Of a stretch of 64,000 nt of DNA, positions 1 to 55,301 are shown piece after piece; position 1 is the first letter of the stretch, and each line of letters opens with the position of its first letter. Made by a program: the position numbers and the translations under genes. Below the pieces are notes generated by a model. It made no database searches. It worked only from the letters and a program-made list of their open reading frames with translations, and was not told the origin of the DNA. The stretch is from positions 155,001-219,000 of the forward strand of contig DASVHD010000035.1 of the NCBI GenBank assembly GCA_036382775.1. The letters run 5' to 3'. Source of the DNA: a bacterium. GTDB lineage: Bacteria > Hydrothermota > Tepidihabitantia > SM23-42 > JAOAFX01.

Positions 1-1
1 C

Positions 2-542: not shown

Positions 543-1250
543 ATGAACGATGACAACAGGTGCTGGGCTGACCGCATCATCAGAAAAACCGATCCCACCT
601 ATAAGATCCGCGCCGATGTTTATAAAGATCTAATACTCTCGTATCTAGCGCCGCGAAAAGTCTGGATAGACATCGGCTGCGGCGACAATTCAATGATCAT
701 GGATCTGGGTCACTATACCGGGTTAGCGATCGGTACTGATGTTAAACAGCATACCCAACTCGTCTGCACTCCGTTCGTTTGCGCGGATCTATTCGACTTG
801 CCTTTCGCCTTGGGCAGCGCGGACCTTGTCACGCTGCGCTTTGTTATAGAACACATTCAGAACGTTCCGAAAGGAATCGCGGAAGCAGAACGGATCTTGA
901 AACCTGGAGGGCATGTTCTGATCATAACCACGAACATCCTGAACCCTTTCATATTTTTTGCTCGCCTCGTTCCTTTCAGGTATAAGAAAAAGATGATAAG
1001 GTCAATGTACGACGCCGACATATCCAATATCCAGCCGACCGGCAACTGGCTCAATCCATACCAGATGTTGAAACGCAATACCGGCGGTCTTGAGTTGACC
1101 CATTTTGATTTTGTCCAGGACGCGAATTGCGCGCGCAAATGGCTATTCCTGCTTTTTTATTCATGGCACTTGCTTACTAAATGGAGCAATTTGAAACTGC
1201 TCAGGACCTGCGTGGTCGGAGTGCTGAAGAAAAAAGTCATTATTAATTGA
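543..1250 (+). CDS. Class I SAM-dependent methyltransferase
   Basis: A 235-aa protein with the class I methyltransferase core. Motif I is VWIDIGCGDNSM (about residues 39-50), the SAM-binding glycine loop. It is followed by an acidic strand end (IGTDV) and a post-motif block resembling Methyltransf_11 proteins (ADLVTLRFVIEHI, then AERILKPGGHVLIIT). The C-terminal third holds a hydrophobic, basic stretch often seen in methyltransferases of lipid or glycan precursors. The substrate cannot be read from the sequence. It sits at the edge of the polysaccharide cluster, 22 bp after the ureohydrolase, so methylation of a sugar or lipid-linked intermediate is plausible but unproven. Confidence 0.8.
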   Translation: MNDDNRCWADRIIRKTDPTYKIRADVYKDLILSYLAPRKVWIDIGCGDNSMIMDLGHYTGLAIGTDVKQHTQLVCTPFVCADLFDLPFALGSADLVTLRFVIEHIQNVPKGIAEAERILKPGGHVLIITTNILNPFIFFARLVPFRYKKKMIRSMYDADISNIQPTGNWLNPYQMLKRNTGGLELTHFDFVQDANCARKWLFLLFYSWHLLTKWSNLKLLRTCVVGVLKKKVIIN

Positions 1251-1274
1251 CTTTCGCCCATAGACAGATATAAT
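1247..1274 (+). promoter_or_regulatory. Sigma70-type promoter of the epimerase gene, leaderless
   Basis: TTGACT (1247-1252), 16-bp spacer, perfect TATAAT (1269-1274), then 7 bases to ATG at 1282. Transcription should start at or within a base or two of the start codon. The -35 box overlaps the stop codon of the preceding methyltransferase. Confidence 0.8.
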
Positions 1275-1281
1275 TACGCGC

Positions 1282-6351: not shown

Positions 6352-6357
6352 CGCTTC

Positions 6358-6385
6358 ATTATATAATATGAATTGCTGCTGTCAA
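6358..6385 (-). promoter_or_regulatory. Promoter of the heparinase-like / amidotransferase operon
   Basis: On the minus strand: TTGACA (6385-6380), 16-bp spacer, TATAAT (6363-6358), then 6 bases to ATG at 6351. Both hexamers are perfect and the mRNA should be leaderless. It lies about 75 bp from the divergent Wzz promoter. Confidence 0.87.
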
Positions 6386-6460
6386 TGCTTTTACCTGTTT
6401 AATTACACAACTACTATATTCCCTGCGTACTTCGTTTTTATGACTTCCAAGCGACCTGTC

Positions 6461-6488
6461 TTGACATGCTACAAAATTCGTGTAATAT
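6461..6488 (+). promoter_or_regulatory. Promoter of the Wzz-like gene
   Basis: TTGACA (6461-6466), 16-bp spacer, TAATAT (6483-6488), then 6 bases to a GTG start at 6495. No SD sequence precedes the start, so initiation is probably leaderless at GTG, or at ATG 6510 with a leader of about 15 nt. Confidence 0.8.
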
Positions 6489-6494
6489 TGAGCT

Positions 6495-7733: not shown

Positions 7734-7766
7734 CCCGGGAATATTTTCCAAAACAAAAATTTATTT

Positions 7767-9029
7767 TCAGGATTTTCCGCTGTTAATTGCTGGTTTTAGT
7801 CGAAAAATTCTTCTTAAAGCCGATACTGCATAGGGTGTAATTATCATACTAAATCCTGCTTCCCATAAGGGCAATAGATGGAAGTGGTATCCGAAAAAAC
7901 TGACGGTAAGGATGCCCAGTAAGTGTACGGATAACAGGTTGAGCACAGTGCCACGCTTAGACAAAGCCAGATTATAAATAGTATAGATGACCAGTCCTAT
8001 TACCATCATAAAAATCAGCGAGCCATAAAATCCCAGGCACATATACAATGTCGTAAAAATAGTACCCGTATTATTCTTTACCGCAAACTGTGTTGCGATC
8101 GGAACAAAAAAAGGTATGGCGGGATTTACGTAATTATAATCACCGACAATAAAGTGATGTAAGTTTACCGGTACCGTAAAAACAATGTCGGGTGAAAGAT
8201 AATTCTCAAAACCTTTGAGAAAATAACCCAGGGTGATTGGCCCGGCGACAACATAATCTTCAAAGGCGTTAAAAGTAAAAGATAAAAGCAGTATTGCTCG
8301 GTTGAATCCCAGGGTTGCAGTGAATCCAATAAAGTAAGCCAGAACGAAAATAGCGAATATCGCCAACCCGGCGACGATTATATTCACGGTTTTGATCTTC
8401 CGTACAATTCTGCTTTGCACCGCAAAATACAATGTCGGGAGAAGGAGGAGTATCGTACGGTACTTTACCTGATTGGCGAGCACCACGAAGATCATGAGGA
8501 GCAAAGATAATAGCACAAATTTGCTGTGATTCTTCAGCCAAAATGCACCCAGTAAAATGAAACTCGGGTATGCCAGAATCGTGATGTGCCCTAAAATACC
8601 TGAACGGAACGCCAATTGGAACGATTCAGTTCCAAGGGCATCGAATCCAAGAGTAATTCCAATTTTTGCAAAACTCAATAACCCGGCGGCGATCGCGACC
8701 CACACGATACCAAGTAATATAGAACGGTGATCTGTTATAAAAGTTTCAAGCTGAACATTCGTTTCTGAAATCTGTCGCCCGCGCAAAATATACCAAATTA
8801 TCTGCCCTGTCAACCAGAACAATGCGACATTAAGCGCGACAAAAACAATGCTCTCGCTTGTAACCGGTTTATACTGGCGGTGCCATCCGAAACCCAGTAA
8901 AAACAAGACGACAAATAAATAGGGCCAAACGATTACATTAAATGGCGTGATAAAGGTTTTATACTGATGGCGCTCAAGAAGCGTCATCAATACAACCATC
9001 AGACAAAAAAGCGTTATTGTTAATAGCAT
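7767..9029 (-). CDS. Wzy-like O-antigen / oligosaccharide repeat-unit polymerase
   Basis: A 420-aa polytopic membrane protein with about 10-12 hydrophobic helices and almost no soluble domain. Its length, the hydrophilic periplasmic loop in the second half (about residues 265-310) and its position in a locus with Wzx and Wzz support a polymerase that joins lipid-linked repeat units at the periplasmic face. Wzy proteins diverge too much for a motif-based call. Its start overlaps the end of the upstream glycosyltransferase gene by 10 bp, making it the last gene of wzx / GT2 / wzy. Confidence 0.72.
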   Translation of the reverse strand: MLLTITLFCLMVVLMTLLERHQYKTFITPFNVIVWPYLFVVLFLLGFGWHRQYKPVTSESIVFVALNVALFWLTGQIIWYILRGRQISETNVQLETFITDHRSILLGIVWVAIAAGLLSFAKIGITLGFDALGTESFQLAFRSGILGHITILAYPSFILLGAFWLKNHSKFVLLSLLLMIFVVLANQVKYRTILLLLPTLYFAVQSRIVRKIKTVNIIVAGLAIFAIFVLAYFIGFTATLGFNRAILLLSFTFNAFEDYVVAGPITLGYFLKGFENYLSPDIVFTVPVNLHHFIVGDYNYVNPAIPFFVPIATQFAVKNNTGTIFTTLYMCLGFYGSLIFMMVIGLVIYTIYNLALSKRGTVLNLLSVHLLGILTVSFFGYHFHLLPLWEAGFSMIITPYAVSALRRIFRLKPAINSGKS

Positions 9030-10021
9030 TGAGATAATTCCTCAAAAGCCCTGTCAATATTTTCCTTAGAAACTACATCGCACGCGTTTGAATATTTAAT
9101 CAAGAAACGTGCCATCTTGAGTATAGATATTACTGGATAATGGTATTTGAAATATACCAGCGGTATGATGTATAGAAAGCTCGCAAACCGCCATACATAC
9201 CAGTAAGTCCGGCGATAATAATGTTTGAAGTTCACAAAGCGATTGAAATAATGTAAAAATACGGAACGCATGTTGGCAAACGCTTCTTTCCGCGTCGCTC
9301 CTATTTTATGAAAAACGACCGCCTTACGAACGCATCCCATTTTTATCCCGTGCTTTTTCATCTTCAAGCTAAGATCGTAATCTTCCTCGCCGAAAAAAAA
9401 ATGATCAGACAGACCGCCAAATTTCTTGAAGATTTCAGATCTTGCCAATAGCGCGCACCCGGTTATGAAGGTGATCCCTTGCACCGAGTCGTCCGGGCAT
9501 TCGCTGGCCAGCTGATCGCAGTCATAATAATGGCGATGTCCGAAAATAGTGAGCCTGCCACCTGAATTGGCTATCCTGTCGCGCTCGCCATAATGTCTTA
9601 TCTGCGGGGTCACTACTCCCAAGTAAGGCTCATGCTCCATTGTATCGATAAGATATCCAAGCGCCTTTGGAGCTATGACCGTATCATTGTTTAACAGCAT
9701 TATATATTTGTAACCCCGCCCGGCGGCGTAAGCAATGCCAATGTTGTTTCCGCCCGCAAATCCAAGGTTGCTTCGGTTCTCGAACAACAGGTGTTTAATA
9801 CCAAACCCGTGTTTTGACAACCATTCTTTCATCTTTTTCACGGAATCGTTCATTGACCCATTGTCGATCAATAATACCGTAAAATCCTTATATTCTGATT
9901 TTTTAAGTGATTCAATGCATTCGATCGTATCCTGCCATGTATTCCAGTTGATCACCACGATGGACAACATGGATTTTGGACCGGTATTGATGCTTTTTAA
10001 TGGATCAGATCTCGCGGTCAT
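9020..10021 (-). CDS. Family 2 glycosyltransferase (rhamnosyltransferase-like)
   Basis: A 333-aa inverting GT-A glycosyltransferase. LSIVVINWN (about residues 19-27) is the nucleotide-sugar binding strand, NLGFAGGNNIGI a conserved GT2 block, MLLNNDTV carries the NND form of the DXD metal motif, and FFGEEDYDLSLK holds the EED acceptor/catalytic-base motif. This arrangement is shared with rhamnosyltransferases such as WbbL-like enzymes. A hydrophobic C-terminal segment may anchor it to the membrane. It overlaps the Wzx stop (ATGA) and the polymerase start, so it is cotranscribed between them. Confidence 0.88.
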   Translation of the reverse strand: MTARSDPLKSINTGPKSMLSIVVINWNTWQDTIECIESLKKSEYKDFTVLLIDNGSMNDSVKKMKEWLSKHGFGIKHLLFENRSNLGFAGGNNIGIAYAAGRGYKYIMLLNNDTVIAPKALGYLIDTMEHEPYLGVVTPQIRHYGERDRIANSGGRLTIFGHRHYYDCDQLASECPDDSVQGITFITGCALLARSEIFKKFGGLSDHFFFGEEDYDLSLKMKKHGIKMGCVRKAVVFHKIGATRKEAFANMRSVFLHYFNRFVNFKHYYRRTYWYVWRFASFLYIIPLVYFKYHYPVISILKMARFLIKYSNACDVVSKENIDRAFEELSQCY

Positions 10022-11595
10022 GCGTTCTTCCCCAATCTGCGTTTAACGAATGAGCACTCATCGTCGCTGAATTCACCGAAAATAAAAAGCGCTACCAGAT
10101 AAATCGGGATAATGGCGATACCGGCGATCAAGAGTTTCATAAAAGATGAAATAGCGATGAATTTCAATGTTGTCAAGAAGGCCGCAACGCACAATGAAGC
10201 GATAACGATCTTACCGAGCGACCTCCACGGTATCAGCCATGGGATGTCCCGTTTCGTGCCGAAAAACACCAGCACTGGATAAAGAGTAAAGCAAACCAAT
10301 GTTGTGACCGCCGCCGCGATATATCCGAACCAAGGTATGAATATCAGATTCAAAACAATCTTAACGACCGTGCAAATTATGACATAATAGAACATGATCC
10401 TGGTTTTTTCTCGGAACTCCAGCCCCTTATGTCCAAACATTGCAAAGGACCAGATCAAGATGCCAATCAAAACTATTGGCATGACCAGGTTTCCTTCCCG
10501 GTACTCCGATCCAAGAAAAACATTCGCGAACTCACGGGAAAAAACTACAATATAGGTTAAGACCGGGAATGACAGTATCAAGAAATAACGCGAGAATGAT
10601 CTTATGAGCTGTTGCACGCGCACACTATTGGTGGCAATATCAGTACCTGCCTTCATGAGAATCGGGTGAGCTGCATTCAAGAGCGGCGTTGTGATCAGCG
10701 CCATTGCTGAAGCCATAAGGTTGTAATTAGAGCTGTAGATACCAACTTCCCGGCTGTCCCGGAGAATTTGGATGACGTAGCGGTCGGCAATACTCAGGAG
10801 TTCGGCACCAAGAAACCAGCCGATCATAGGAAATCCATAGAAAAAGAACTGTTGAAAGAAACTAACCAAACTTGCATTATTTTTTTTATTCGTCTCATCA
10901 ATGACAAGTCGCTGTGTCGGTCGAAAGCTCGGCAGGTTTTGGTAAGTGAATAACATGGGAATGATAATGACAAAAAAAGCCGAAAAAATGCCCCACAATA
11001 AACTGTCCACGGTCCGACTGTACAATATGACGATCAATAATGGAATGAAAAATTTTAGCATCCCGTTGAGGATGGTAAAAATGCTGAAATACCATGATCT
11101 TAGGTCCGCCTGATAGAGTGTGATCAAACAATTGAACCATATTCCGGATACGATCAACAGGAATGACACAAAGAAATAGCTCTCATATGATCCTAAAACA
11201 CCGCGTATAGGATAAGTTACCACGACCACCACTGCGAAAGTCATGGTTAAAAGCAAGAGCAAAGTCGTGAACTTCTCGTTAAAGAATCCGACTTGTCCAT
11301 TGGCAACGTATTGCGCGCGGTATCTTAGCACCGACTGCACTATCCACTGCGAGGCAAAAGCCGTCACTATCGTGGTCGTAGTTAATACCAGGATATATTG
11401 CCCGTAGAGAGAAGGGTCGAATAACCGCGTAAAGACAGCGACGGCCAGAACTCCCAAAATACCGGGGATGATCTTTGCGGGGACGTACAACAGGGTATCT
11501 TTGGCAAGTTTCTTCATCACGGTCCGCATGGCATTGTCAAAGGGAACTCCCGCTGGTTCTTTGTTGCCCGCACTGGTTGTTTCAGAATGATCCAT
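10018..11595 (-). CDS. Wzx-type lipid-linked oligosaccharide flippase
   Basis: A polytopic protein of about 525 residues in the MATE/polysaccharide-transporter group, with 12-14 predicted helices. It should flip undecaprenyl-linked repeat units to the periplasmic face. The start is ATG at 11595. An in-frame TTG at 11637 would add 14 residues, but that TTG is the first triplet of the -35 box of this gene's own promoter, so it cannot be on the transcript. The conserved first helix follows a polar N-terminus (PAKIIPGILGVLAVAVFTRL). First gene of wzx / GT2 / wzy. Confidence 0.85.
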   Translation of the reverse strand: MDHSETTSAGNKEPAGVPFDNAMRTVMKKLAKDTLLYVPAKIIPGILGVLAVAVFTRLFDPSLYGQYILVLTTTTIVTAFASQWIVQSVLRYRAQYVANGQVGFFNEKFTTLLLLLTMTFAVVVVVTYPIRGVLGSYESYFFVSFLLIVSGIWFNCLITLYQADLRSWYFSIFTILNGMLKFFIPLLIVILYSRTVDSLLWGIFSAFFVIIIPMLFTYQNLPSFRPTQRLVIDETNKKNNASLVSFFQQFFFYGFPMIGWFLGAELLSIADRYVIQILRDSREVGIYSSNYNLMASAMALITTPLLNAAHPILMKAGTDIATNSVRVQQLIRSFSRYFLILSFPVLTYIVVFSREFANVFLGSEYREGNLVMPIVLIGILIWSFAMFGHKGLEFREKTRIMFYYVIICTVVKIVLNLIFIPWFGYIAAAVTTLVCFTLYPVLVFFGTKRDIPWLIPWRSLGKIVIASLCVAAFLTTLKFIAISSFMKLLIAGIAIIPIYLVALFIFGEFSDDECSFVKRRLGKNA

Positions 11596-11608
11596 AAACT
11601 TGATTTGT

Positions 11609-11637
11609 ATTATATATCCCAATATTGCTAATGTCAA
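11609..11637 (-). promoter_or_regulatory. Promoter of the wzx / GT2 / wzy operon
   Basis: On the minus strand: TTGACA (11637-11632), 17-bp spacer, TATAAT (11614-11609), then 13 bases to ATG 11595. The leader would be only about 6 nt, with no SD sequence. The divergent glycosyltransferase promoter begins 20 bp away. Confidence 0.83.
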
Positions 11638-11657
11638 GTTATCTATTGGTTACTCTC

Positions 11658-11685
11658 TTGAAAATCCAATGTTTTTCAGTATAAT
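11658..11685 (+). promoter_or_regulatory. Promoter of the GT4 / oxidoreductase / heparinase / GT4 operon
   Basis: TTGAAA (11658-11663), 16-bp spacer, TATAAT (11680-11685). The first ATG (11698) lies 12 bases after the -10 box. A TTG at 11689 lies too close to be transcribed with normal start-site selection. Confidence 0.8.
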
Positions 11686-11697
11686 TCCTTGATTGTC

Positions 11698-12759
11698 ATG
11701 CAAACAGATCTTCTGTCGTCCAGGTCATTTAATAATCATAAACGTATCTGTTTTTTTGCCCATGTGCATGACAAAAAAGTATTGGAATTGGTGGAATTCT
11801 ACCATAACGATATCAGAATACTCACTGAACTCGGTTTCGATATTTCTATTGCCACGCGGTATCACGAGATCCCGCTGCGCTGCGATCTGTATTACTCGTG
11901 GTGGTGGGCTACCGGCATCCAGGCGTTGGCCGCGGCTCGACTTGCGGGCAAACCGATCATCATGGTCGGCAATGTGCGGTTCGATCAAGACGCGCCTTAT
12001 GGATTTCCCAAGGCTTCGATTTTAAAGATGGTATGCATAAAATCCGCCTTGAGGCTAGCGACGGTTATACTTACGACTTCGCAGTATGAGAATGACATCG
12101 TGACCAGATACCGATCCCGGGATGTTCATATGGTTTATCACGGCATTGACCTCGATATATACAATCCCAATAAAGCAGGCCCCAGAGAAGAGATCCTGTT
12201 CACGATCTGCAACCTCTACCATGAAAATGCCAAACGGAAAAGGATCATTGAAACGATCGAAGCGTTCGCCCTTATCGCACAAAAGTTTCCCGCGTATAAA
12301 TTGGTCATCGCGGGCGGAAGCGCCGGGATACAGGACCGGACCAAAGAAACGCTGCTGGCGCTTGTGGACCATTTAAACCTGCGGGGACGGGTGGTCTTTA
12401 CCGGCTCCATTTCTCTGGTAGAAAAGATAGAGTTCTATCGCAAGGCACAGGCATTCGTTCAGCCGTCTGTATACGAAGGCTTCGGCCTGGCGATCGCCGA
12501 GGCGATGGCATGTGGAACGCCCGTGGTCGTTTGCAGATCGGGCGCGACGCCGGAAGTGGTCGGGGACGCCGGTCTTTATGTTTCCGGAACATCGCAAGAT
12601 ATCGCCGATGGTCTCGTCCAGCTGTTGCGCAATAAAAATTTACGGCAAGATCTGGGTACCATGGGACAAACCCGCGTCATTCAGATGTTCTCCTATGAGA
12701 ACCGGAAAAAAACCCTTAAAAAAATTATTGATTCCACTTTGAAAAAGGAGCGATCATGA
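11698..12759 (+). CDS. GT4-family glycosyltransferase
   Basis: About 353 residues with a GT-B fold. The C-terminal donor site is clear: SVYEGFGLAIAEAMACGTPV, the E-x7-E type motif of retaining GT4 enzymes, followed by SGATPEVVGDAG. The N-terminal acceptor domain is less conserved. It would add a sugar from a nucleotide donor to the growing lipid-linked repeat unit on the cytoplasmic side. ATG 11698 is chosen from the promoter position; TTG 11689 is an alternative that adds three residues. The end overlaps the next gene by 4 bp (ATGA), starting a tight four-gene run. Confidence 0.87.
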   Translation: MQTDLLSSRSFNNHKRICFFAHVHDKKVLELVEFYHNDIRILTELGFDISIATRYHEIPLRCDLYYSWWWATGIQALAAARLAGKPIIMVGNVRFDQDAPYGFPKASILKMVCIKSALRLATVILTTSQYENDIVTRYRSRDVHMVYHGIDLDIYNPNKAGPREEILFTICNLYHENAKRKRIIETIEAFALIAQKFPAYKLVIAGGSAGIQDRTKETLLALVDHLNLRGRVVFTGSISLVEKIEFYRKAQAFVQPSVYEGFGLAIAEAMACGTPVVVCRSGATPEVVGDAGLYVSGTSQDIADGLVQLLRNKNLRQDLGTMGQTRVIQMFSYENRKKTLKKIIDSTLKKERS

Positions 12760-14903
12760 AACAAGTCGTGCAGGATGCGCGTAAAGGGCTTATCAAGGTG
12801 ATCGATGTGCCCGTTCCGCTTCTCAAGGACAATTGCATTCTGGTCAAAAACCGGTACTCTCTAATAAGCGCCGGCACAGAAAAACTCATGCTTGAATTTG
12901 CCAGGAAATCGCTTCTCGGAAAAGCCAGAGCAAGGCCAGATCTTTTCAAACAGATTAGAGAAAAAATGAAAAGGGACGGTATCGGTTTTACGATCCAGCG
13001 CGCCATGAGGCGACTGGAAGTGCCGTCAGCCGTTGGATATAGCTGCGCCGGTGAGATTGTGGAAATCGGTAAAGGTATCTCGGGCGTAAAACCGGGCGAT
13101 GGTGTCGCCTGCGCCGGTGCCGGATATGCCAATCATGCCGAATACATAACCGTGCCTAAAAATCTGTTCGTAAAAATACCTACTGGCGTCGATTATAAAG
13201 CGGCGGCCTACGCGACGGTCGGAAGCGTTGCCCTACACGGCATAAGGACCGCTGGCGTAAGCGTGAATGAAAGCGTGACCGTGATCGGCGCAGGTCTGAT
13301 CGGCCAGATTACGATGCAGATCCTGAAAGCGGCCGGCTGCAGGGTAGTGGGATTTGACACGGATAAACGAAAGATCGCGTTTGCCTTGAAACATGGACTT
13401 AGTTTTGGAGCGAGTTCAGACCGTGAGATCATATCCCTTGTCGATCAATTAACTAATGGAAGGGGTCTTGATTGCGTGATCATTACGGCATCCACCACCA
13501 GTAATGAACCCGTAGAGCTTGCTGGAGAGCTGTTACGGGATCGAGGAAAAGTCGTTGTCGTCGGCTCGGTAAAAATGGATATACCGCGCAGGACATTCTA
13601 CAACAAAGAACTGGATCTTATCGTCTCCAGATCGTATGGTCCGGGACGGTACGATACCGAGTTTGAAGAAAAAGGCCACGATTATCCCATGGGATACGTG
13701 CGCTGGACCGAAACACGCAACATGGAATCGGTACTCGAACTTATTAAAGACAAAAAACTTGACGTTGATATCCTTACCTCCCACATCTACAATATCGACG
13801 AAGTGGAGAAAGCCTATAAGTTAATATCCGGGAAAGGGCTCAGTTATTATGGCATCCTGCTCAAATTTGATCCCGCAGAACCGGCAAAGACCATTAGCCT
13901 CAAGCCGGAATTGCACAAACCAAGCGCCTCGGTCAGGATCGGCGTTATTGGTGCCGGCAATTTTGCCCGTGATTTTCTTCTGCCCCAGATCAGCAAGATG
14001 CGCGATATTTCGATCCACGGGGTAGCTACTGCCAAGGGCCTGAGCGCCAGGTATGTTGCTGATAAATACAGCGTTAATTATATCACCACTGATAGTAACA
14101 AGGTCCTGCATGACAAGGACATAAATACCGTTTTCATATTCACAAGACATGATACCCATGCTTCATATACCATTGAAGCCCTCAAGCATAACAAACATGT
14201 CTTTGTCGAAAAACCATTGGCAACCAGCGAAAACCAACTTCAAGAGCTTATTCAAACCTGGAAACGGTATCCACAAATGGTCATGGTTGGGTATAACCGC
14301 AGATTTTCCCCTATTATCAGATCCGTGCTTGAAAAAATGCCCAAAGGCAATCCCCAGACGGGCGTTTACCGCATCAATGCCGGAGCGATCCCATCCAGCA
14401 GCTGGGTGCATGACGAAAATGAAGGCGGGGGCCGGATCATCGGTGAAGTATGTCACTTTGTCGACCTGGCAATGTATCTCACGGCAAGCCGTCCTTCACG
14501 GGTATATTCTACGACCGCTTTATCTTATGATAATGTATCATGCGTGATCGAATTCGAGAATGGCTCGGTTTTCAACATCATTTACACAACGCTTGGGAAT
14601 CCTGCTTTGCCCAAAGAGAGGATCGAGATCTACAGTCAGGGTAAGGTTGCGATCATAGATGATTTCAGGGGTTATTCAATTATAACGGGAGACCAGGGAA
14701 CTATCCAGAAATCAGGTAAAACGGACAAGGGTTTTCTTCAGGAAATAATTTCTTTTATCGACGCCGTCAAGAACGGAACACCCCCGCCGATCTCTTTTGA
14801 AGATCTGGTCATTAGCACCTATACAACTTTGAAAATAATTGAATCCGCGTCGAAAAACATGCCGGTAAAGATCAATCTCACATCGCTGATAGATGTTAAA
14901 TAG
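12756..14903 (+). CDS. Two-domain oxidoreductase: zinc alcohol dehydrogenase plus Gfo/Idh/MocA domain
   Basis: A 715-aa natural fusion. Residues about 1-370 form a medium-chain dehydrogenase: substrate domain, then Rossmann motif VIGAGLIGQITMQ near 178. Residues about 390-715 form a Gfo/Idh/MocA enzyme with GVIGAGNFARDF near 400 and the conserved EKPLA near 483. This two-domain architecture recurs in exopolysaccharide and O-antigen loci, where it is thought to oxidise a sugar nucleotide. The classical zinc ligands of alcohol dehydrogenase are not obvious, so the first domain may use a non-zinc mechanism. It overlaps the upstream GT by 4 bp and the downstream heparinase-like gene by 11 bp. Confidence 0.87.
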   Translation: MKQVVQDARKGLIKVIDVPVPLLKDNCILVKNRYSLISAGTEKLMLEFARKSLLGKARARPDLFKQIREKMKRDGIGFTIQRAMRRLEVPSAVGYSCAGEIVEIGKGISGVKPGDGVACAGAGYANHAEYITVPKNLFVKIPTGVDYKAAAYATVGSVALHGIRTAGVSVNESVTVIGAGLIGQITMQILKAAGCRVVGFDTDKRKIAFALKHGLSFGASSDREIISLVDQLTNGRGLDCVIITASTTSNEPVELAGELLRDRGKVVVVGSVKMDIPRRTFYNKELDLIVSRSYGPGRYDTEFEEKGHDYPMGYVRWTETRNMESVLELIKDKKLDVDILTSHIYNIDEVEKAYKLISGKGLSYYGILLKFDPAEPAKTISLKPELHKPSASVRIGVIGAGNFARDFLLPQISKMRDISIHGVATAKGLSARYVADKYSVNYITTDSNKVLHDKDINTVFIFTRHDTHASYTIEALKHNKHVFVEKPLATSENQLQELIQTWKRYPQMVMVGYNRRFSPIIRSVLEKMPKGNPQTGVYRINAGAIPSSSWVHDENEGGGRIIGEVCHFVDLAMYLTASRPSRVYSTTALSYDNVSCVIEFENGSVFNIIYTTLGNPALPKERIEIYSQGKVAIIDDFRGYSIITGDQGTIQKSGKTDKGFLQEIISFIDAVKNGTPPPISFEDLVISTYTTLKIIESASKNMPVKINLTSLIDVK

Positions 14904-16890
14904 GATCGTTAATAACTGCCGCAAGATCCATCGGCGCGGCTTTCAGGATCTAACATGGCGGCTAATGTTGCGCTTTAAAAAGCCATCCATAGTAAAGGAT
15001 CTTTGCAATCGCCTGCCACCCGATCTAACCCCCTCCACGGCCATTGTTTCTGCTGATGATTTCCTTGCAATCACGGATTTGATCAACGACGGGCAACGGA
15101 GTAGAGTTATTGAAGAAGCACAAAATATTCTCAAAGGACGCTTGAATATATATCATACGCGGGAAATACACGCCGGGCAAACGATAAACTGGCATCATGA
15201 TGTCCTGACAAATATTACATGGCCCAAAGTACCCTGGCGTTCAATACGCCTAAAACAGGATCATCTGGGCAGCATCAGAAATATATGGGAACTCAACCGG
15301 CACAAACATTTTGTGGTCCTTGGAAAGGCGTATATTTATACGAACGATAAACGGTTTTTTAACGGATTCAAGGAACATTTTGAATCATGGATTCGTCAGA
15401 ACCCGTATGGCATCGGTGTTAACTGGTATAGTTCACTTGAGATCGCCATGCGTGCCATATCATGGCTCTGGGTATATACTTTTTTTGGCCAAACTCCAGC
15501 CTTTGCAAAGATCCATGATCCATTTATTAACAATCTCTATATCCACGCGCAGCATATATATCATTATCGCAGTGAATTCCTCCATCCAAGCAATCATAAT
15601 ATTGGAGAAGCAGCGGCATTATACATGCTTTGTGCAGTTTTTCCTCAATTCGACCCAGATCGAACCTGGCGCAAAAAAGCCAGAGATATGCTCGAAAAGG
15701 AGGTTATACGCCAGACTTATACTGATGGCGGATGTAAAGAGCAGTCTTTCTCCTATATGCTTTTTGATCTGGACCTGCTGATGCAGACGCTGTTTGTAAG
15801 CGAACGCATGGGCGATGCTTTTTCTGATCATTTTGTCACCCGGATCGAAAAGATGCTAGATTGTCTGTCATTACTGGCACAACCGGGTAACAAAATACCT
15901 ATGGTCGGTGATAGCGACAACGCGCGGGGACTGCCGATTATAAACAGCTGCAATTTTTGGCAGGAAGAAGACTTGTTTTGTCTGGGTGGCTTATTCTTTG
16001 ACCGCAGAGATCTTTTAAGTAAAACAAAAATCTTCACAGAAAGCGCCGCCTGGCTCACTGGAGCAAGAGGATATAAAAAATACCATACTCTCAAAAAAGT
16101 TGCAACACAGAATTCTTCAACTTATTTGCTTCAGAGCGGATATTTTATCCTGCGTGACAACAGGAAACATGACATCTATGTTCTATACGACGTCGGCGAA
16201 TTGGGGATCGGCAAAGTAGCGGGCCACGGTCATGATGATCTTACAAGCGTGGTGATTTCCATAAATAACAATGAATTTATAATAGACCCTGGAACTTATA
16301 CCTACTCTGCGCAGGATCCCCGGCGTTCCTATTTGCGATCCACCAGCGCTCATAATACAATATTGATAGACAATACTCCAAGGATAAAACCACTTTCGAG
16401 CTTTGACTGGGATAAAACCATCAAAGGGCATGCAATACGTTATGGATTTTTGGATAAGATTGATTTTGCAGAAGCCAGCTACGATTATAAAGCGCACGTT
16501 ACCCATCGGAGAAAAACAGTTCTGCAAAAACACGGGTGGATAGGTATCCAGGATCACATCGCCGGACATGGTCTTCACCAGGTCGAGTTGAATTTCCATC
16601 TTTCACCTGAGGTTATTATTGTTGACCATACCGGCAATTCGATTTTGTGCAGGAACAGACGGAATTACCTGATCCTGTATGTCTCTAACTATGATTACGC
16701 GCTTTCCGTGGTCAAGGATGAAGTCTCATACACATATGGTATTTCGATACCGTCAAAGACGATCAAACTGGCAGCGCATCGATTCCTGCCGGAGACCGTG
16801 ACCACGCTTTTTGTTCCAAGTTTTGGTAAACCCAATATTATGAGTGAACAAGCACTGGATCAGGCCTTCAAAACCATCGAGACCATATGA
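14893..16890 (+). CDS. Heparinase II/III family protein of a polysaccharide locus
   Basis: A 665-aa protein with an N-terminal alpha/alpha-toroid (residues about 100-400, containing HNIGEAAALYMLC) and a C-terminal heparinase II/III beta-sheet domain (GHGHDDLTSVVISI near 440, then FIIDPGTYTYS, and RRSYLRSTSAHNTILIDN). The first His-rich motif carries the residues usually assigned to catalysis and metal binding. No signal peptide is visible; the N-terminus is basic and non-hydrophobic, unlike the exported heparinase-like protein at 3493-6351. Members found in O-antigen or capsule loci are often called uronate lyases or epimerase-like, but their real activity is poorly defined. Cotranscribed with both neighbours by overlap. 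Confidence 0.8.
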   Translation: MLNRIVNNCRKIHRRGFQDLTWRLMLRFKKPSIVKDLCNRLPPDLTPSTAIVSADDFLAITDLINDGQRSRVIEEAQNILKGRLNIYHTREIHAGQTINWHHDVLTNITWPKVPWRSIRLKQDHLGSIRNIWELNRHKHFVVLGKAYIYTNDKRFFNGFKEHFESWIRQNPYGIGVNWYSSLEIAMRAISWLWVYTFFGQTPAFAKIHDPFINNLYIHAQHIYHYRSEFLHPSNHNIGEAAALYMLCAVFPQFDPDRTWRKKARDMLEKEVIRQTYTDGGCKEQSFSYMLFDLDLLMQTLFVSERMGDAFSDHFVTRIEKMLDCLSLLAQPGNKIPMVGDSDNARGLPIINSCNFWQEEDLFCLGGLFFDRRDLLSKTKIFTESAAWLTGARGYKKYHTLKKVATQNSSTYLLQSGYFILRDNRKHDIYVLYDVGELGIGKVAGHGHDDLTSVVISINNNEFIIDPGTYTYSAQDPRRSYLRSTSAHNTILIDNTPRIKPLSSFDWDKTIKGHAIRYGFLDKIDFAEASYDYKAHVTHRRKTVLQKHGWIGIQDHIAGHGLHQVELNFHLSPEVIIVDHTGNSILCRNRRNYLILYVSNYDYALSVVKDEVSYTYGISIPSKTIKLAAHRFLPETVTTLFVPSFGKPNIMSEQALDQAFKTIETI

Positions 16891-18110
16891 AAATTCTTTA
16901 CATCACACAATACTATCCGCCCGAGATCGGTGCGGGGTCATTCAGGGCCGAAGCCATTGTCGACGGTTTAGCGCGAAGAGGCCATGAAGTAACGGTGATA
17001 ACCGAGATACCAAATTACCCGCATGGCAAGGTCTATACCGGGTTCAACAAAAGGCCATGGCAGGTCCGCAAATACAGCAATCATCAAGTTCATTATGTTT
17101 GGGTCAAGTCTGCTGTGAAGATGAATTTTATCAAGCGTATTGCGCTTTACCTGTCATTCGCATTCATGGCTATCGGCAAAGGCTTATTGTTGAAAGAAAA
17201 ACATGATGTCATTTATGTAACATCTCCGCCGCTCTTTGTAGGTATTACGGCTTATGTACTGGGCAAGATCCTTCGAATACCCTATATTTTTGAAGTCAGA
17301 GATCTCTGGCCTCAGATCGCGATCGAAAGCGGCGAACTCAGCAACCCAATAGCGATCAAAATGGCGAGATGGTTAGAATCCTTTCTATATCTGCATTCAC
17401 GACATATTGTAACCGTTACAAAAGGATTCAAGAGATCAATAAACCAAATGAATGTGCCGTCTTCAAAAGTTGACGTTGTTTTCAATTTTGCAAAAACGGA
17501 TCAAAATATAACAACTGCAATTCCAGATAATGTGAAGTCTAATTTTAATAATAGATTTACTGTCCTTTATGCCGGGATCCTTGGTTATTTTCAGGGTATT
17601 GATGTCATCATACAGGCCGCCAATCTAGTTAAGCACCAGCCGGATATTTTGTTTATAATAGTCGGCAAGGGAACCGAAGAGCAAGCGTTAAAGAAATTAA
17701 GTACCGAGCTCCAGTTAAAAAACATTGTATGGCTGCCACCTCAACCGAACACATTAACGCATGTTCTTTTGTCAACGGCTGGTTGTTCCGTGATCCCCTT
17801 AAAAAACCTACCCAGCCTAAGAATGACCATACCTTCCAAGCTGTTCGATTATATGGGTTGTGGCTGTCCAATTATCTTATCTGCCAGCGGTGAAGCGGTC
17901 GACATGCTGAGATCATCAGGGGCCGGTGTCTGTGTTGAACCAGAAAACGCCGATCAGTTAGCCAATGCCATTTTGAATTTATATAATAACAAAAACACAT
18001 GTAATGAATATTCACAAAAGGGTAAAAAAGCAGTAAACAGTATTTTCTCCAGTGAAAAGGCTATAGACACAATCAACAACATAGTGACGCGCGTGGTGAT
18101 AGGTTCCTGA
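16887..18110 (+). CDS. GT4-family glycosyltransferase (WbuB/WcaI-like)
   Basis: A 407-aa GT-B glycosyltransferase. The N-terminal signature QYYPPEIGAGSFRAEAIV followed by GHEVTVITEIPNYPHG is characteristic of WbuB/WcaI-type enzymes that transfer fucosamine or related amino sugars. The C-terminal nucleotide-sugar domain contains SKLFDYMGCGCPIILS and a VDMLRSSGAGVCVEP block. It starts at the ATGA overlap with the heparinase-like gene and ends the operon. The 3' half is more AT-rich than the rest of the locus. tRNA-Leu follows after 47 bp with its own promoter. Confidence 0.87.
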   Translation: MKILYITQYYPPEIGAGSFRAEAIVDGLARRGHEVTVITEIPNYPHGKVYTGFNKRPWQVRKYSNHQVHYVWVKSAVKMNFIKRIALYLSFAFMAIGKGLLLKEKHDVIYVTSPPLFVGITAYVLGKILRIPYIFEVRDLWPQIAIESGELSNPIAIKMARWLESFLYLHSRHIVTVTKGFKRSINQMNVPSSKVDVVFNFAKTDQNITTAIPDNVKSNFNNRFTVLYAGILGYFQGIDVIIQAANLVKHQPDILFIIVGKGTEEQALKKLSTELQLKNIVWLPPQPNTLTHVLLSTAGCSVIPLKNLPSLRMTIPSKLFDYMGCGCPIILSASGEAVDMLRSSGAGVCVEPENADQLANAILNLYNNKNTCNEYSQKGKKAVNSIFSSEKAIDTINNIVTRVVIGS

Positions 18111-18122
18111 CAACTTAGCAGG

Positions 18123-18150
18123 TTGACTATTCGGAAAATCTGAATATTAT
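18123..18150 (+). promoter_or_regulatory. Promoter of tRNA-Leu(CAG)
   Basis: TTGACT (18123-18128), 16-bp spacer, TATTAT (18145-18150), then 7 bases to the mature tRNA 5' G at 18158. The predicted start site coincides with the mature 5' end. Confidence 0.75.
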
Positions 18151-18157
18151 TTGCAAA

Positions 18158-18241
18158 GCCGGGGTGGCGGAATTGGCAGACGCACTAGGTTCAGGACCTA
18201 GCGCTCGCAAGGGCATAGGGGTTCAAATCCCCTCTCCGGCA
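18158..18241 (+). tRNA. tRNA-Leu(CAG)
   Basis: An 84-nt class II tRNA. The acceptor stem GCCGGGG pairs with CTCCGGC (one G-T), with discriminator A at 18241. The anticodon stem-loop is CTAGG-TTCAGGA-CCTAG with anticodon CAG, and the T loop is GTTCAAATC. A long variable arm (GCGCTCGCAAGGGC region) identifies leucine. The 3' CCA is not encoded. Confidence 0.95.
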
Positions 18242-18247
18242 TAGTTA

Positions 18248-18434
18248 CGAATAAAACGAATTTAAGCAGACGAATGATACAAATAAAACCTAATTGCGAA
18301 TTATTCGAATATTAAAAAGGCGAATAACACGAATTGAAACAACCCATAGTAGACGAAAACCATATCATATATGCAGACCTATCATATAAAATAGTTATGA
18401 AAGAATTGTCATTCGTTGAATTCGCTATCATTCG
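18248..18434. repeat. CGAAT / ATTCG periodic repeat cluster
   Basis: CGAAT occurs at 18248, 18257, 18271, 18297, 18306, 18321 and 18330, mostly paired 9 nt apart. The reverse complement ATTCG occurs at 18411, 18420 and 18430. The left half is therefore inverted relative to the right half and could fold back. This fills the 212-bp gap between tRNA-Leu and the next gene. No ORF or clear terminator is visible here. Confidence 0.75.
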
Positions 18435-18453
18435 TTTAACAAATTAGTAAAGC

Positions 18454-20037
18454 ATGGCAAAATATCTGTGGCGTATCGTTTTTGCTCTACTTGTTATCTA
18501 CCTTCTTTTCTATGTTGTAAATTCGATCCTGATCATTGTCTATCCTTATCAAATATCATACCCGGAAGGTTTCTTGCTGAACCAGGCGTTCACTATCGCC
18601 CAAGGCAGACCGATCTATAATGGCATCACCGATTATCCCTTTTTAGTGGCAAATTATCCTCCTGTTTACCCCTATCTCTGCGGTCTTTTCGTCAAGCTCT
18701 TCGGCGTTTCGTTCGCCTGGGGCCGGATCATCTCATTTCTCGCCATTATTGCCTGCGCTTATTTCATTTATGATATTTGCAGGAATGCCCCCCTTACCCT
18801 TTCTCCCTTACGGGACACCAATCATTATCCCCCCCACCCTAACCCTCCTCCCACAGGGACACCAAATATAATGAAAGATCCTTTTCCACGTTGCCCTCAA
18901 GGGGGGAGAAAAAAGGAGGGGGTGCAATGTTGCCACGATGAGCGAGGGATGGAAATAAATACCAACGGACACCGGCAGCGTGCTAGTCTAATTACTTCCC
19001 TGCTATTTTTGGCTTCACCATACGTGTACAATATAACTACCCAGGTCCGGGTTGACGCGTTGGCGCTTTTTTTGAGTATTTTTGGTATCTGGTTCGCGCT
19101 TAAGAATATCAATAAAAAAATCATGTACCTTTCGGCCCTGTTTTTTGCAGCCGCGCTTTTCACAAAACAAACATATGCGGCCGCCCCGATCGCATTTGCT
19201 GTTTATTTATTTTTCATAAACCGAACCCGCGGCTTTTTATTTATTGTCATGACTCTCTTATCCTATTCGGTCGTATTTTTAGTTTTTAATACCCTAACCG
19301 CTGGCGAACTATACCGAAATAACGTGCTGTATAATGCCAATCCTTATAGTTTCCTGTTCGCCATCAAAATGTACGCGTCTCTATTAAAGACGCATCTGAT
19401 ATTGATCACTCTTTCCATCGCTTATATGATCTTTTCACCGGTCAAAAAACACATCCTGTCGTTCTTTTCGATTTATTTCATCGTCGCGGCGCTGGTCGCG
19501 CTTTCCATCGGCAAGATCGGTTCCAATGTCAATTACTTTCTGGAACTTATCGCGGCAGGAAGCATCGTCGTTGGCTTGTGCGCTAACGAACTAATGGAAA
19601 ATACCAAAACACAGCTGATCCTGCCTGCTTTGCTTATCGCACAACTGATCCTGTTCGCGCATCTCCCGTTCATCACCGGCAAAACACCATCTAAAATCGA
19701 CCGCGAAACAGGACAGCGCATATCAACGATGATCCAGGCTGCTCCAGGAGATATCATTTCCGAAGACGCAGGAATTCTGATCCTGAATAACAGAAAAGTG
19801 CTTTACCAGCCGTTCGAATTTACCCAGCTTAAGAACCAGGGGCTTTGGGATCAGAGCCGGTTCGTACGGGACATCGATATTCAAAAATTTAGTCTGCTTA
19901 TTCTTGGATCTGATACTCAGGGATCTTATGATGAAGAACGATTCACACCTGAAATAGTCGCGGCGATTGCGAACAGCTACATGCTGAAGGAAAAGATCGG
20001 GGATTGGTATATATATAAACCAATAAAAAATGAATAG
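18454..20037 (+). CDS. Multi-pass membrane glycosyltransferase (GT39/ArnT/PMT-like) with in-frame repeat insertion
   Basis: A 527-aa integral membrane protein with about 9-11 hydrophobic helices. The first extracytoplasmic loop has YPEGFLLNQAF and NYPPVYPYLC, resembling the acidic-site loop of GT-C enzymes (PMT/ArnT/DUF2029 type), which use polyprenyl-phosphate sugars at the outer face. Residues about 111-175 are a Pro/Arg/Cys-rich hydrophilic block unlike the rest. It is encoded by a dispersed DNA repeat whose inverted copy lies at 41820-41926. Without it, helix 3 (ending YFIYDICR) would run directly into RASLITSLLFLASP. The frame is kept, so the gene may still be functional with a large cytoplasmic or periplasmic loop. 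ATG 18454 lacks both an SD sequence and a strong promoter. Confidence 0.72.
   Translation: MAKYLWRIVFALLVIYLLFYVVNSILIIVYPYQISYPEGFLLNQAFTIAQGRPIYNGITDYPFLVANYPPVYPYLCGLFVKLFGVSFAWGRIISFLAIIACAYFIYDICRNAPLTLSPLRDTNHYPPHPNPPPTGTPNIMKDPFPRCPQGGRKKEGVQCCHDERGMEINTNGHRQRASLITSLLFLASPYVYNITTQVRVDALALFLSIFGIWFALKNINKKIMYLSALFFAAALFTKQTYAAAPIAFAVYLFFINRTRGFLFIVMTLLSYSVVFLVFNTLTAGELYRNNVLYNANPYSFLFAIKMYASLLKTHLILITLSIAYMIFSPVKKHILSFFSIYFIVAALVALSIGKIGSNVNYFLELIAAGSIVVGLCANELMENTKTQLILPALLIAQLILFAHLPFITGKTPSKIDRETGQRISTMIQAAPGDIISEDAGILILNNRKVLYQPFEFTQLKNQGLWDQSRFVRDIDIQKFSLLILGSDTQGSYDEERFTPEIVAAIANSYMLKEKIGDWYIYKPIKNE
18785..18980 (+). repeat. Dispersed repeat inserted in frame in the membrane glycosyltransferase gene
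   Basis: A C- and G-tract-rich block between codons for DICR and RASL. The part 18825-18932 matches the reverse complement of 41820-41926 with about five differences in 108 bases, including GGACACCAAATATAATGAAA. Such identity over a non-coding match shows that it is an inserted element, not gene sequence. Confidence 0.88.
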
Positions 20038-20169: not shown

Positions 20170-20731
20170 AGAACAGAAAAACATCTTACGAGCAGGTAAT
20201 TTTTTTTTCCGTTACAGAGCTGTTATTGCCGTACCGTTCTTTATCGCCCTGGTGTTACTATCCAAACGCCCTTATTCCTTGGTCGTACCTGTTGTCCTAA
20301 CGCTGGTTGGTCTGGCAGTCCGGTCATGGGCTGCGGCATACGTCGGCAAAGGTTCGCGGGGCACTACGATCCTGGCCGAATACAGGATCGTCAATGGTCC
20401 ATACCGGTTCTACCGGCACCCCATCTATCTCGGCAACTTACTGCTGGTGTACGGGACGGTTGTATTGTTTAATCCTGGTGTGCTGTTTTCAATACTGGTG
20501 ATCTTTCTTTTTCTCGTTGAATACAGCATCATCATCAAAACCGAGGACGAGTACCTTATAAATAAAGAACCTAAAATGGTACGGTTCAGTTTCCAGAACT
20601 TAGCCCATGAACTGTCGACGCTCCTCGTCATGATCGTCATCTACTTGATCTATGTATTGAGGTTTGTGGTTTTTTCACGGATTTTACCCGTATTGACATT
20701 GTCATGTGCTCTGATATACTTTCAAAAATGA
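20165..20731 (+). CDS. Isoprenylcysteine carboxyl methyltransferase (ICMT)-family membrane methyltransferase
   Basis: About 188 residues with four or five hydrophobic helices. The family signature GPYRFYRHPIYLGNLL (about residues 78-93) contains the RHP-Y-G residues that bind S-adenosylmethionine in ICMT/PEMT proteins. Bacterial members methylate small lipophilic or unknown substrates; none can be assigned here. The start is ATG 20165 (TTG 20156 would add three residues). That ATG lies in the GCAATGAC end of a dispersed repeat, so the present 5' end was shaped by the insertion. No SD sequence or promoter is evident, and expression may depend on the upstream gene. The 3' end overlaps the next gene by 4 bp and carries its promoter. 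Confidence 0.8.
   Translation: MTEQKNILRAGNFFFRYRAVIAVPFFIALVLLSKRPYSLVVPVVLTLVGLAVRSWAAAYVGKGSRGTTILAEYRIVNGPYRFYRHPIYLGNLLLVYGTVVLFNPGVLFSILVIFLFLVEYSIIIKTEDEYLINKEPKMVRFSFQNLAHELSTLLVMIVIYLIYVLRFVVFSRILPVLTLSCALIYFQK
20693..20720 (+). promoter_or_regulatory. Internal promoter for the CofE-like gene
   Basis: TTGACA (20693-20698), 16-bp spacer, TATACT (20715-20720), then 7 bases to ATG 20728. It lies wholly within the 3' end of the ICMT-family gene. It excludes the upstream in-frame codon at 20704, which lies between the two promoter boxes. Confidence 0.82.
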
Positions 20732-25542: not shown

Positions 25543-25570
25543 ATTTTACCGTGTTTTGTGGAAAAGTCAA
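25543..25570 (-). promoter_or_regulatory. Promoter of the accD operon, leaderless
   Basis: On the minus strand: TTGACT (25570-25565), 16-bp spacer, TAAAAT (25548-25543), then 5 bases to ATG 25537. Confidence 0.83.
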
Positions 25571-27977: not shown

Positions 27978-28005
27978 ATTATACATTTTTTTTTAGTATT
28001 GTCAA
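27978..28005 (-). promoter_or_regulatory. Promoter of the DUF / purC / asd operon, leaderless
   Basis: On the minus strand: TTGACA (28005-28000), 16-bp A-rich spacer, TATAAT (27983-27978), then 5 bases to ATG 27972. Both boxes are perfect. Confidence 0.88.
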
Positions 28006-42257: not shown

Positions 42258-42285
42258 TTGAATACCGGCCAAATCTTGCTATAAT
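42258..42285 (+). promoter_or_regulatory. Promoter of the greA-like gene, leaderless
   Basis: TTGAAT (42258-42263), 16-bp spacer, TATAAT (42280-42285), then 5 bases to ATG 42291. Confidence 0.85.
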
Positions 42286-42290
42286 ACCGC

Positions 42291-44348
42291 ATGCGCGAGG
42301 ATATCAAGAAATACATCGAGCAGAAAGATTTCGAAGGTCTGGAGAATGCATGGATGGAGATGGCCGAGCAGAACCAAACCCTCCTTGATGATTATTTCGC
42401 GATCGCCGAGCGGTTGAAAAAGATCTCTGTGACCGAGCAAGCATATCTGCTGCTGGAGATCCTGGCCGGCCAATATGAAGCAATAAATGATTTGGACAGG
42501 GCGCTGGCCGTTTACAAGCAGATGCCTTATTACACTTCGAACGATTCCAAGGCCAGGGAAAAAACGGCTCATCTTTACCGAGTAAAATACAAAGACTGCT
42601 TGAACATTGAAGATTATCTGGAAGTCTCGGGTTTTGAAAAGGGTGAGCATTTTTTTAAATCCCTGGAGCGCCTGGATGAATTCTTGAAATATGACGTCGG
42701 CAAGTTTTTCTACTTTGAAAAATATGGGATCGGTGAGATCAAGGATGTAATGCCTTTAAAAAAAGAGTTCATTATCGATTTTGAGAAACATCCGCGCCAT
42801 TTCATGAAATTCGATATCGCTCGCGGACTGCTTATGCCTCTCACCAGCGAGCATTTTCTGTATCAAAAGCAAAAAAATATGCCCGGGTTGAAGGAGTTGG
42901 CGAGTACTGACCCGATTGGCTTAGCGAAACTGATCCTGTCCAGTTTCCCTCAGCCCCTGTCAGTTGCCCAGTTAAAGAATCACGTGGAAGGCATCATTGA
43001 TAAGAACGAGATCGCCCACTGGTGGGATAAAGTGCGTAAGCAGCTGGAGCATGACATCAACATCCGGGTCGGAGGCAAAACCCAGAAAACATACCAGTAC
43101 GTCAGTGCCGGTGTCAATAAAACAGTTGAAGCCGTCAATGGTTTTGAAAAAGCGTCACCTGAAGAAAAATATGCATTGGCTGAAATCATGGTCAAGAAGG
43201 ATCCGGCCGCGTTCGAAAAGATCATGCCCTTGCTCCTGCAGGTAGCCCATGATCAACTTCAGCAAAACCCTGGTTTAGCCCTTGACATCGTACTTTTACT
43301 GAATGAAATTTCATGCAAGATCAGCGATCCTTTAAACATCGAAGATATCTATGATACGCTGCCGCCGGCAGAGATCGTTCATCACCTTCAGAATTTCAAC
43401 CATCAGCGAATAGTCCTTGATCACATCAGCAAAACCAATCCGGAAACCTGGCCAACCATCTACAGATCCATCCTCTTCCATGCCGGCACAGAAAGCCGGC
43501 TCATGGCCGAAATAGAACAACGGCTGGCATCAAACCCGGACATTCTGAAAGATTTCTATGACGCCGTTTTCCTGGTGCCCCATAACCACCCGGAGCAGTT
43601 TCAGTGGCTCATGAAAAAAGTATCAAAAGCCGAATTAAAGAATTATCTGGTGCCTGGACTGGTCCCCCGGTTCATCAGCAGTCTGGATCATGTCAAGGGT
43701 CTTAAATCGACCGTCATGAAGATCCTTGCCCTGGAGCGGTTTGATGAACTCCTCAACAGCGCGACACCGGATGACGCCCAGAAGATCATCGCGGCCGTAA
43801 ATAACAGCCAGAGCCTGGAAAATTTCGAAAAGCGGGATTTCCTGCGGGTTTTGGAATATCATTTCCCCCAACTTTTCAAACGCGAAGACCTTATCTATTC
43901 AACACCAGCCGCCCTGCAGAACAAAAAGAGCGAACTGGAAAAACTCCTGACCGTAGATATCCCGGAAAACAAGAAGGAAATAGGCCGGGCGCGGGAACAT
44001 GGCGATCTGAGCGAGAATTTCGAATACAAGGCGGCAAAGGAGCGGCAGGACCAACTCTATCAAAAGGTGCGGGACATCGAACAGGACCTGCCTAAGGTAA
44101 AATTGATCGACGCTCGGACGGTCGACACTTCTAAGGTATCCATCGGCACCATGGTCTCCTTGAAAAACAAGCGGTCCGGCCAGGTAGTAACCTTCACGAT
44201 CCTGGGCCGGTGGGACACCGACCTGGAACACAGCGTGATCTCCAACGAATCACCGCTGGCCCGCGCCATGTTGGGAAAGAGCTGCGGTCACAGCGTGGTC
44301 ATCGATGATTTCGAACATGAGATCGTCATGATCGAGAAGGGAATCTAG
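42291..44348 (+). CDS. greA: Long transcription elongation factor GreA with large N-terminal extension
   Basis: 685 residues, against about 158 in ordinary GreA. The last 140 residues are a complete GreA: the N-terminal coiled coil with AREHGDLSENFEYKAAKERQ, including the tip acidic residues (D, E of GDLSEN), and the C-terminal FKBP-like domain. Residues 1-540 are predicted helical and contain TPR-like pairs (ALAVYKQMPYYTSNDSKARE). Long GreA proteins with an N-terminal extension are known in Chlamydiae. The coiled coil rescues backtracked RNA polymerase by stimulating RNA cleavage. The extension may tether it to ribosomes or polymerase, but nothing in the sequence tests that. The stop TAG is in frame with the next gene. 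Confidence 0.88.
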   Translation: MREDIKKYIEQKDFEGLENAWMEMAEQNQTLLDDYFAIAERLKKISVTEQAYLLLEILAGQYEAINDLDRALAVYKQMPYYTSNDSKAREKTAHLYRVKYKDCLNIEDYLEVSGFEKGEHFFKSLERLDEFLKYDVGKFFYFEKYGIGEIKDVMPLKKEFIIDFEKHPRHFMKFDIARGLLMPLTSEHFLYQKQKNMPGLKELASTDPIGLAKLILSSFPQPLSVAQLKNHVEGIIDKNEIAHWWDKVRKQLEHDINIRVGGKTQKTYQYVSAGVNKTVEAVNGFEKASPEEKYALAEIMVKKDPAAFEKIMPLLLQVAHDQLQQNPGLALDIVLLLNEISCKISDPLNIEDIYDTLPPAEIVHHLQNFNHQRIVLDHISKTNPETWPTIYRSILFHAGTESRLMAEIEQRLASNPDILKDFYDAVFLVPHNHPEQFQWLMKKVSKAELKNYLVPGLVPRFISSLDHVKGLKSTVMKILALERFDELLNSATPDDAQKIIAAVNNSQSLENFEKRDFLRVLEYHFPQLFKREDLIYSTPAALQNKKSELEKLLTVDIPENKKEIGRAREHGDLSENFEYKAAKERQDQLYQKVRDIEQDLPKVKLIDARTVDTSKVSIGTMVSLKNKRSGQVVTFTILGRWDTDLEHSVISNESPLARAMLGKSCGHSVVIDDFEHEIVMIEKGI

Positions 44349-48133: not shown

Positions 48134-48148
48134 GCAACCTCGTGCGGT

Positions 48149-48176
48149 ATTATACCGCTACTGAACCTCCTGTCAA
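48149..48176 (-). promoter_or_regulatory. Promoter of the rlmI-like gene
   Basis: On the minus strand: TTGACA (48176-48171), 16-bp spacer, TATAAT (48154-48149), then 15 bases to ATG 48133. The leader of about 8 nt contains GAGG. Confidence 0.85.
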
Positions 48177-52312: not shown

Positions 52313-52340
52313 TTGATTTTTAAGACCTCCTGGATATAAT
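52313..52340 (+). promoter_or_regulatory. Promoter of the saccharopine-dehydrogenase-like gene, leaderless
   Basis: TTGATT (52313-52318), 16-bp spacer, TATAAT (52335-52340), then 5 bases to ATG 52346. The TTG at 52340 overlaps the -10 box and cannot be the start. Confidence 0.82.
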
Positions 52341-55273: not shown

Positions 55274-55301
55274 TTGACAAGCATATAAATCTGTATAAAA
55301 T
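55274..55301 (+). promoter_or_regulatory. Promoter of the cNMP-binding gene, leaderless
   Basis: TTGACA (55274-55279), 16-bp spacer, TAAAAT (55296-55301), then 7 bases to ATG 55309. An overlapping extended -10 reading (TGTATAAA) is also possible. Confidence 0.82.

Follow-up and report, generated by a model that had tools for sequence, protein, structure and literature searches.

The gene at 42291..44348 (plus strand) of a 64,000-nucleotide stretch of DNA from an uncultured bacterial lineage (hereafter the window) encodes a 685-residue protein with a C-terminal GreA/GreB domain. Its -35 box, TTGAAT, lies at 42258..42263 and is followed after a 16-bp spacer by a -10 box, TATAAT, at 42280..42285, with the ATG 5 bases further on. 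Bacterial transcription starts about 6-8 bases past the -10 box, and the ATG is therefore also the expected start of the transcript. We asked whether this gene is likely to be transcribed without a leader and whether it belongs to a wider class of such genes in the genome and its relatives.

Promoter sites in the window

The original prediction listed nine genes of the window in which -35 and -10 boxes end just short of the start codon, and matching to the 12 positions of TTGACA and TATAAT recovered boxes and gaps at all nine. Two of the sites are perfect, both on the minus strand, with TTGACA/N16/TATAAT at 6358..6385 (gap 6 to the ATG at 6351) and at 27978..28005 (gap 5 to the ATG at 27972, a DUF6982 gene that adjoins purC). 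Three match at 11/12, all on the plus strand and with a gap of 7: TTGACT/N16/TATAAT at 1247..1274 before the ATG of an epimerase gene at 1282, where, as a caveat, the -35 box shares bases with the preceding gene's stop codon; TTGACA/N16/TATACT at 20693..20720 before the ATG of an F420 ligase-like gene at 20728; and TTGACA/N16/TAAAAT at 55274..55301 before the ATG at 55309 of a gene with a cyclic-nucleotide-binding domain. Alongside 42291 the four sites at 10/12 include TTGACT/N16/TAAAAT at 25543..25570 (minus strand, gap 5 to the ATG at 25537 of an acetyl-CoA carboxylase-like gene with a carboxyltransferase domain), TTGATT/N16/TATAAT at 52313..52340 (plus strand, gap 5 to the ATG at 52346 of a saccharopine dehydrogenase-like gene) and a site at 6461..6488 (plus strand) before the GTG of a Wzz-like gene at 6495. 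At this last site TTGACA with spacer 16 (TAATAT, gap 6) and with spacer 17 (AATATT, gap 5) fit equally well, and the 16-bp spacer predicted for all nine genes is thus unambiguous in eight. The weakest of the nine is 20728, whose promoter lies within the end of a real upstream gene, an ICMT/PEMT methyltransferase with a stop codon that overlaps the start codon as ATGA; the match is due to an internal promoter or to coincidence, and for this one site chance is still possible.

The window also holds some features of separate interest. The leaderless-type promoters of 6351 and 6495 diverge from a single 143-bp intergenic region, with 5-6 bases between each start codon and the -10 box that serves it. 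At 11595 (minus strand) a perfect TTGACA/N17/TATAAT promoter stands 13 bases before a start codon that is itself uncertain, with no SD site, and this may be a short-leader gene. The first 20 kb (1-20000) have a G+C content of 0.43-0.47, against 0.49-0.54 past that point, and carry Wzz, epimerase and mannosyltransferase-like genes with a tRNA-Leu at 18158; this region is possibly a glycan cluster acquired laterally.

Distance from promoter to start codon across the genome

In order to place the nine sites in a genomic context we analysed 859 kb, in stretches, of the 3.06 Mb genome (51 contigs) to which the window belongs. Genes were called with a simple home-made caller based on a hexamer model, in which the choice of start codon is blind to promoters and SD sites. 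A gene was taken as the first of its transcript where its neighbour was divergent or where at least 60 bases separated it from the upstream gene (n=328). Promoters were accepted at 9/12 or better against TTGACA/TATAAT, and those whose -10 box ends 4-8 bases ahead of the start codon were classed as leaderless-type.

In this sample 54/328 first-of-transcript genes (16%) have a leaderless-type promoter, compared with about 1% when the upstream sequence is shuffled; of the promoters that score 10/12 or better, 28% are leaderless-type. The class is confined to the heads of transcripts, with a promoter at gap 4-8 in only 1/271 operon-internal genes. As had been predicted, the -10-to-start distance shows a sharp peak: the first-gene counts are 22 at gap 5, 14 at gap 6, 4 at gap 7 and 12 at gap 8, with 3, 2, 0, 0 and 2 at gaps 0 to 4 and 4, 4, 4, 4, 3 and 3 at gaps 9 to 14, so that the maximum at gaps 5-6 stands against neighbouring counts of 0-4. 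The gap range of 5-7 seen at the nine sites is thereby extended to gap 8 for the class. Reversed and permuted motifs gave zero at gaps 4-8 of the called-start histogram and no peak, and an E. coli control run through the identical pipeline gave 0/99 leaderless-type genes. The description of leaderless transcription as the rule for many genes was nevertheless overstated: it applies to about 16% of first-of-transcript genes, the majority being leadered and SD-led, and some first genes lack both a detectable promoter and an SD site.

Near-consensus promoters are unusually common in this genome as a whole, with a match of 11/12 or better within 250 bases of 115/328 first genes compared with 2/99 in the E. 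coli sample.

We consider it very probable that in these genes housekeeping promoters of the sigma-70/RpoD type start transcription on the A of the start codon or no more than about two bases away from it, giving leaderless or nearly leaderless mRNAs. Gaps of 5-7 would place that A at or beside +1, given the usual distance between the -10 box and +1. The mRNA would then begin with AUG, and the ribosome, probably as a 70S particle as in other bacteria, would bind the 5' AUG directly. The genome would accordingly use two modes side by side: a minority of transcript-first genes would start without a leader, and SD sites would serve the leadered and operon-internal genes.

A less probable variant, although one that deserves some weight, is that the mRNAs carry very short leaders (1-5 bases) and so are not leaderless in the strict sense, with an identical route of translation. 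A +1 at 6-7 bases past the -10 box leaves one or two bases at gaps 7-8, gap 8 accounts for 12/54 first-gene sites, and the sites at gaps 7-8 may indeed have leaders of one or two bases. There is however no room for a leader at the dominant gaps of 5-6, and a Deinococcus deserti control has an equal gap. A pyrimidine preference directly before the ATG, which would favour +1 at the A, was inconsistent across genomes.

SD sites, start codons and coding signal

Leaderless starts predict the absence of an SD site, and we scored SD strength as pairing with the 16S tail. The frequency of SD sites rises with the gap of the best promoter, from 0.02 at gaps 4-8 and 0.10 at 9-14 to 0.75 at 15-24 and 0.76 at 25-49, and 51% of operon-internal genes have one. 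As the 16S gene is absent from the 51 contigs of this genome, the anti-SD was read in relatives, and its core CCTCC is intact in those with readable 16S ends. With an intact anti-SD in relatives and SD use by internal genes, the SD machinery appears to be present and the leaderless-type genes are merely without a site. Their start codons are 48 ATG, 5 GTG and no TTG at gap 4-8, compared with 116, 10 and 13 respectively at gaps of 15 or more.

These results could be misleading if the start codons were miscalled, the true starts lying downstream behind SD sites and ordinary leaders. No draft genome is free of doubtful start calls, and 16% of the leaderless-type genes do have some SD-preceded start within 30 codons downstream; this rate however does not exceed that of SD-led genes (27%) or of other genes (20%). 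The coding score is positive across the first 30 codons in all 61 genes, so that the coding signal begins at the called starts, and for 52346 and 27972 the alignment with orthologues begins at residue 1. In the family of 42291 start codon and promoter shift together, as described below. We therefore regard miscalling as a very unlikely explanation. A start upstream of the called one is ruled out at gaps 5 and 8, since these place the TAA of TATAAT in frame as a stop codon.

The 16-bp spacer and the type of promoter

The consensus of 62 sites reads TTGAC(A/T) and TATAAT, as is expected of sites picked by similarity to that consensus. In the TANNNT profile of the genome there are peaks at gaps 5 and 6; among TAnnnT sites at gap 4-8 the triplet TTG occurs at spacer 16 in 43/81.

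The original prediction had tied the 16-bp spacer to leaderless starts. Our analysis shows that it is seen equally in leadered genes and is a general property of the promoters: at 10/12 the genome has 308 promoters with spacer 16 and 141 with spacer 17 over a background of 63-75, and where an exact TATAAT stands at gap 9-39 (n=44) TTG is found at spacer 16 in 31 and at spacer 17 in 4. The preference for spacer 16 extends to other families of the class. These spacers lie within the canonical sigma-70 range of 17 +/- 1 bp, yet they centre on 16, which reflects a trait of the housekeeping promoter of this lineage. An RpoD was found; on visual inspection its regions 2.4 and 4.2 appear canonical, and the cause of the shift is not visible in them. 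E. coli (200 kb at 10/12) gave no usable spacer signal, and the spacer contrast with E. coli thus rests on the literature.

The bipartite form of the signal bears on a further possibility, that the A+T-rich box before the ATG is no promoter but a translation signal. AT-rich non-canonical upstream signals of this kind have been reported in FCB-group bacteria (PMC9581028). Against this, the box is accompanied by TTG at a fixed 16 bp in the 43 sites given above, is almost confined to first genes with the single operon-internal exception, and recurs elsewhere in the genome as the same bipartite motif in front of leaders and SD sites. A purely translational role is in our view highly improbable, and we continue to treat the boxes as promoters.

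One promoter of the same type in the window has a different setting. The -10 box of a TTGACA/N16/TATAAT promoter falls inside a near-perfect, operator-like palindrome, GCGGTATAATACCGC, at 48144-48158, a sequence present in the genome in only one exact copy. The gene downstream of it, from 48133 on the minus strand, is leadered and SD-led and encodes a PUA-domain SAM methyltransferase.

Conservation in orthologues

Orthologues of 42291 were found with readable upstream DNA in 22 genomes of the order, at 39-48% protein identity, and 22/22 keep the -35 box, the 16-bp spacer and the -10 box. The -35 element is TTGNNN at the equivalent place in all 22, mostly TTGAAT, and the -10 box is TATAAT in 22/23 sequences (our own included) and TATACT in one. 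The gap from -10 box to start codon is 5-7, with one at 9. Measured against the protein alignment, the start codon of most family members is displaced by two or three codons, and the promoter moves along with it. The protein itself has about 530 residues preceding the GreA domain, an arrangement present across the order; it resembles PRK14720/PRK06330-type fusions below the cut-off, and in a comparison with named genomes the GreA domain of a Pelagibacter genome was the only match.

The arrangement at 27972 is likewise retained, with TTGACA, a 16-bp spacer and a -10 box at gap 5-6 in 13/13 close orthologues from the order whose upstream DNA is readable. A class-level relative (L183) keeps it more weakly, and more distant homologues are leadered, often with an SD site. 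For 52346 the arrangement is kept in 10 relatives within the order. In a sister genus (g2) its orthologue is preceded by an SD site (ggaggt-like) in place of such a promoter. To judge by the upstream DNA the gene is probably operon-internal in that genus; if so, a switch to an SD site would be expected should leaderless starts be possible only at transcript heads.

Spread across the order, class and phylum

In order to survey further genomes we counted matches to a strict pattern, TTGA-N18/19-TATAAT-N5-7-ATG, with the reversed pattern and the same pattern with the ATG moved to gap 20-22 as controls. The 27 genomes of the order have 65-161 matches each (median 104), compared with 0-4 per genome for the reversed control and a median of 33 for the gap 20-22 control, which is a common position for SD-led starts, so that the strict pattern is 3.2 times higher. 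In other families of the class this ratio is 3.3-6.0 with the exception of one (f6) at 1.8. By the scored search 13-14% of first genes in this family are leaderless-type, and its low ratio reflects the poorer fit of its promoters to the strict pattern. Elsewhere in the phylum two genomes have 6% leaderless-type first genes, and 200 genomes of another phylum, that of the Pelagibacter locus, have 0-4 strict-pattern matches each.

That the nine sites arose by chance in a genome rich in consensus promoters, as the 115 first genes with near-consensus matches might suggest, is exceedingly unlikely given the result of the shuffles, the restriction of the peak to gaps 5-8 and the conservation of the arrangement in relatives, and for the class as a whole this reading is refuted. 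The sharp gap peak, the lack of SD sites, the near-absence from operon-internal genes, the conservation in orthologues and the recurrence across the class together lend strong support to the view that leaderless transcription is a real and regular minority class in this lineage, so far as DNA sequence can indicate.

It is plausible, though rather less likely than not, that a whole class has moved its housekeeping promoter to a 16-bp spacer and holds the distances between promoter and start codon fixed in orthologous genes over order-level divergence, the leaderless start of a set of old genes being itself selected. If so, it would mark these genes as, for example, a regulatory or translational class and would not be a passing state.

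Comparison with known leaderless systems

The genes described here indicate that leaderless and SD-led genes coexist in an uncultured lineage, and the families of 42291 and 27972 add long-range orthologue evidence that single genes retain a leaderless promoter. With promoters so near consensus the leaderless fraction can be measured on DNA sequence by itself, and gene callers that expect an SD site may misplace starts in this lineage.

Leaderless genes are known in many bacteria, and the present case is of that kind. A survey of 953 genomes found such "TA-led" genes in many bacteria, and in Actinobacteria and Deinococcus-Thermus their share exceeded 20% (Zheng et al. 2011; PMC3160421), and StartLink predicts leaderless transcription in 21.6% of bacterial species and in up to 40% of transcripts (PMC9581028). 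Like the genes of Zheng et al. 2011 those described here have a -10-like signal about 10-12 bp before the start and no SD site, and form a minority mixed with SD-led genes; the full TAtaaT which that survey shows in medium-GC genomes is also found here (PMC3160421). The survey searched a short upstream region (20 bp in the Streptomyces example), and for this reason the -35 box and spacer are undescribed in it (PMC3160421).

The original prediction drew a comparison with Deinococcus, which is apt for geometry and fails for promoter type. In Deinococcus the -10 box beside an ORF acts as a promoter, usually without a -35 box, and experiment in D. radiodurans links it to leaderless mRNA (PMC12340547). 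The -10 box is equally distant from the start in Deinococcus-Thermus and in the present lineage, with a TANNNT peak at gap 5-6 on D. deserti plasmid 1 in the identical pipeline. In D. deserti however TTG occurs at spacer 16 in 0/17 sites and at spacer 17 in 1/17, in keeping with TANNNT signals that mostly lack a -35 box (PMC12340547), whereas here a near-consensus -35 box stands at 16 bp. Actinobacteria such as Mycobacterium likewise combine leaderless and SD-led genes in one genome, and are set apart by description as high-GC bacteria with TANNNT signals (PMC3160421, PMC9581028). A literature search on leaderless genes in uncultured phyla found nothing specific, and what sets the present case apart from the known ones is a -35 box near consensus at 16 bp, together with its occurrence in an uncultured lineage for which that search found no description. 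It places full -35/-10 promoters of a medium-GC group beside the -10-only signals of the high-GC bacteria that have so far dominated the picture.
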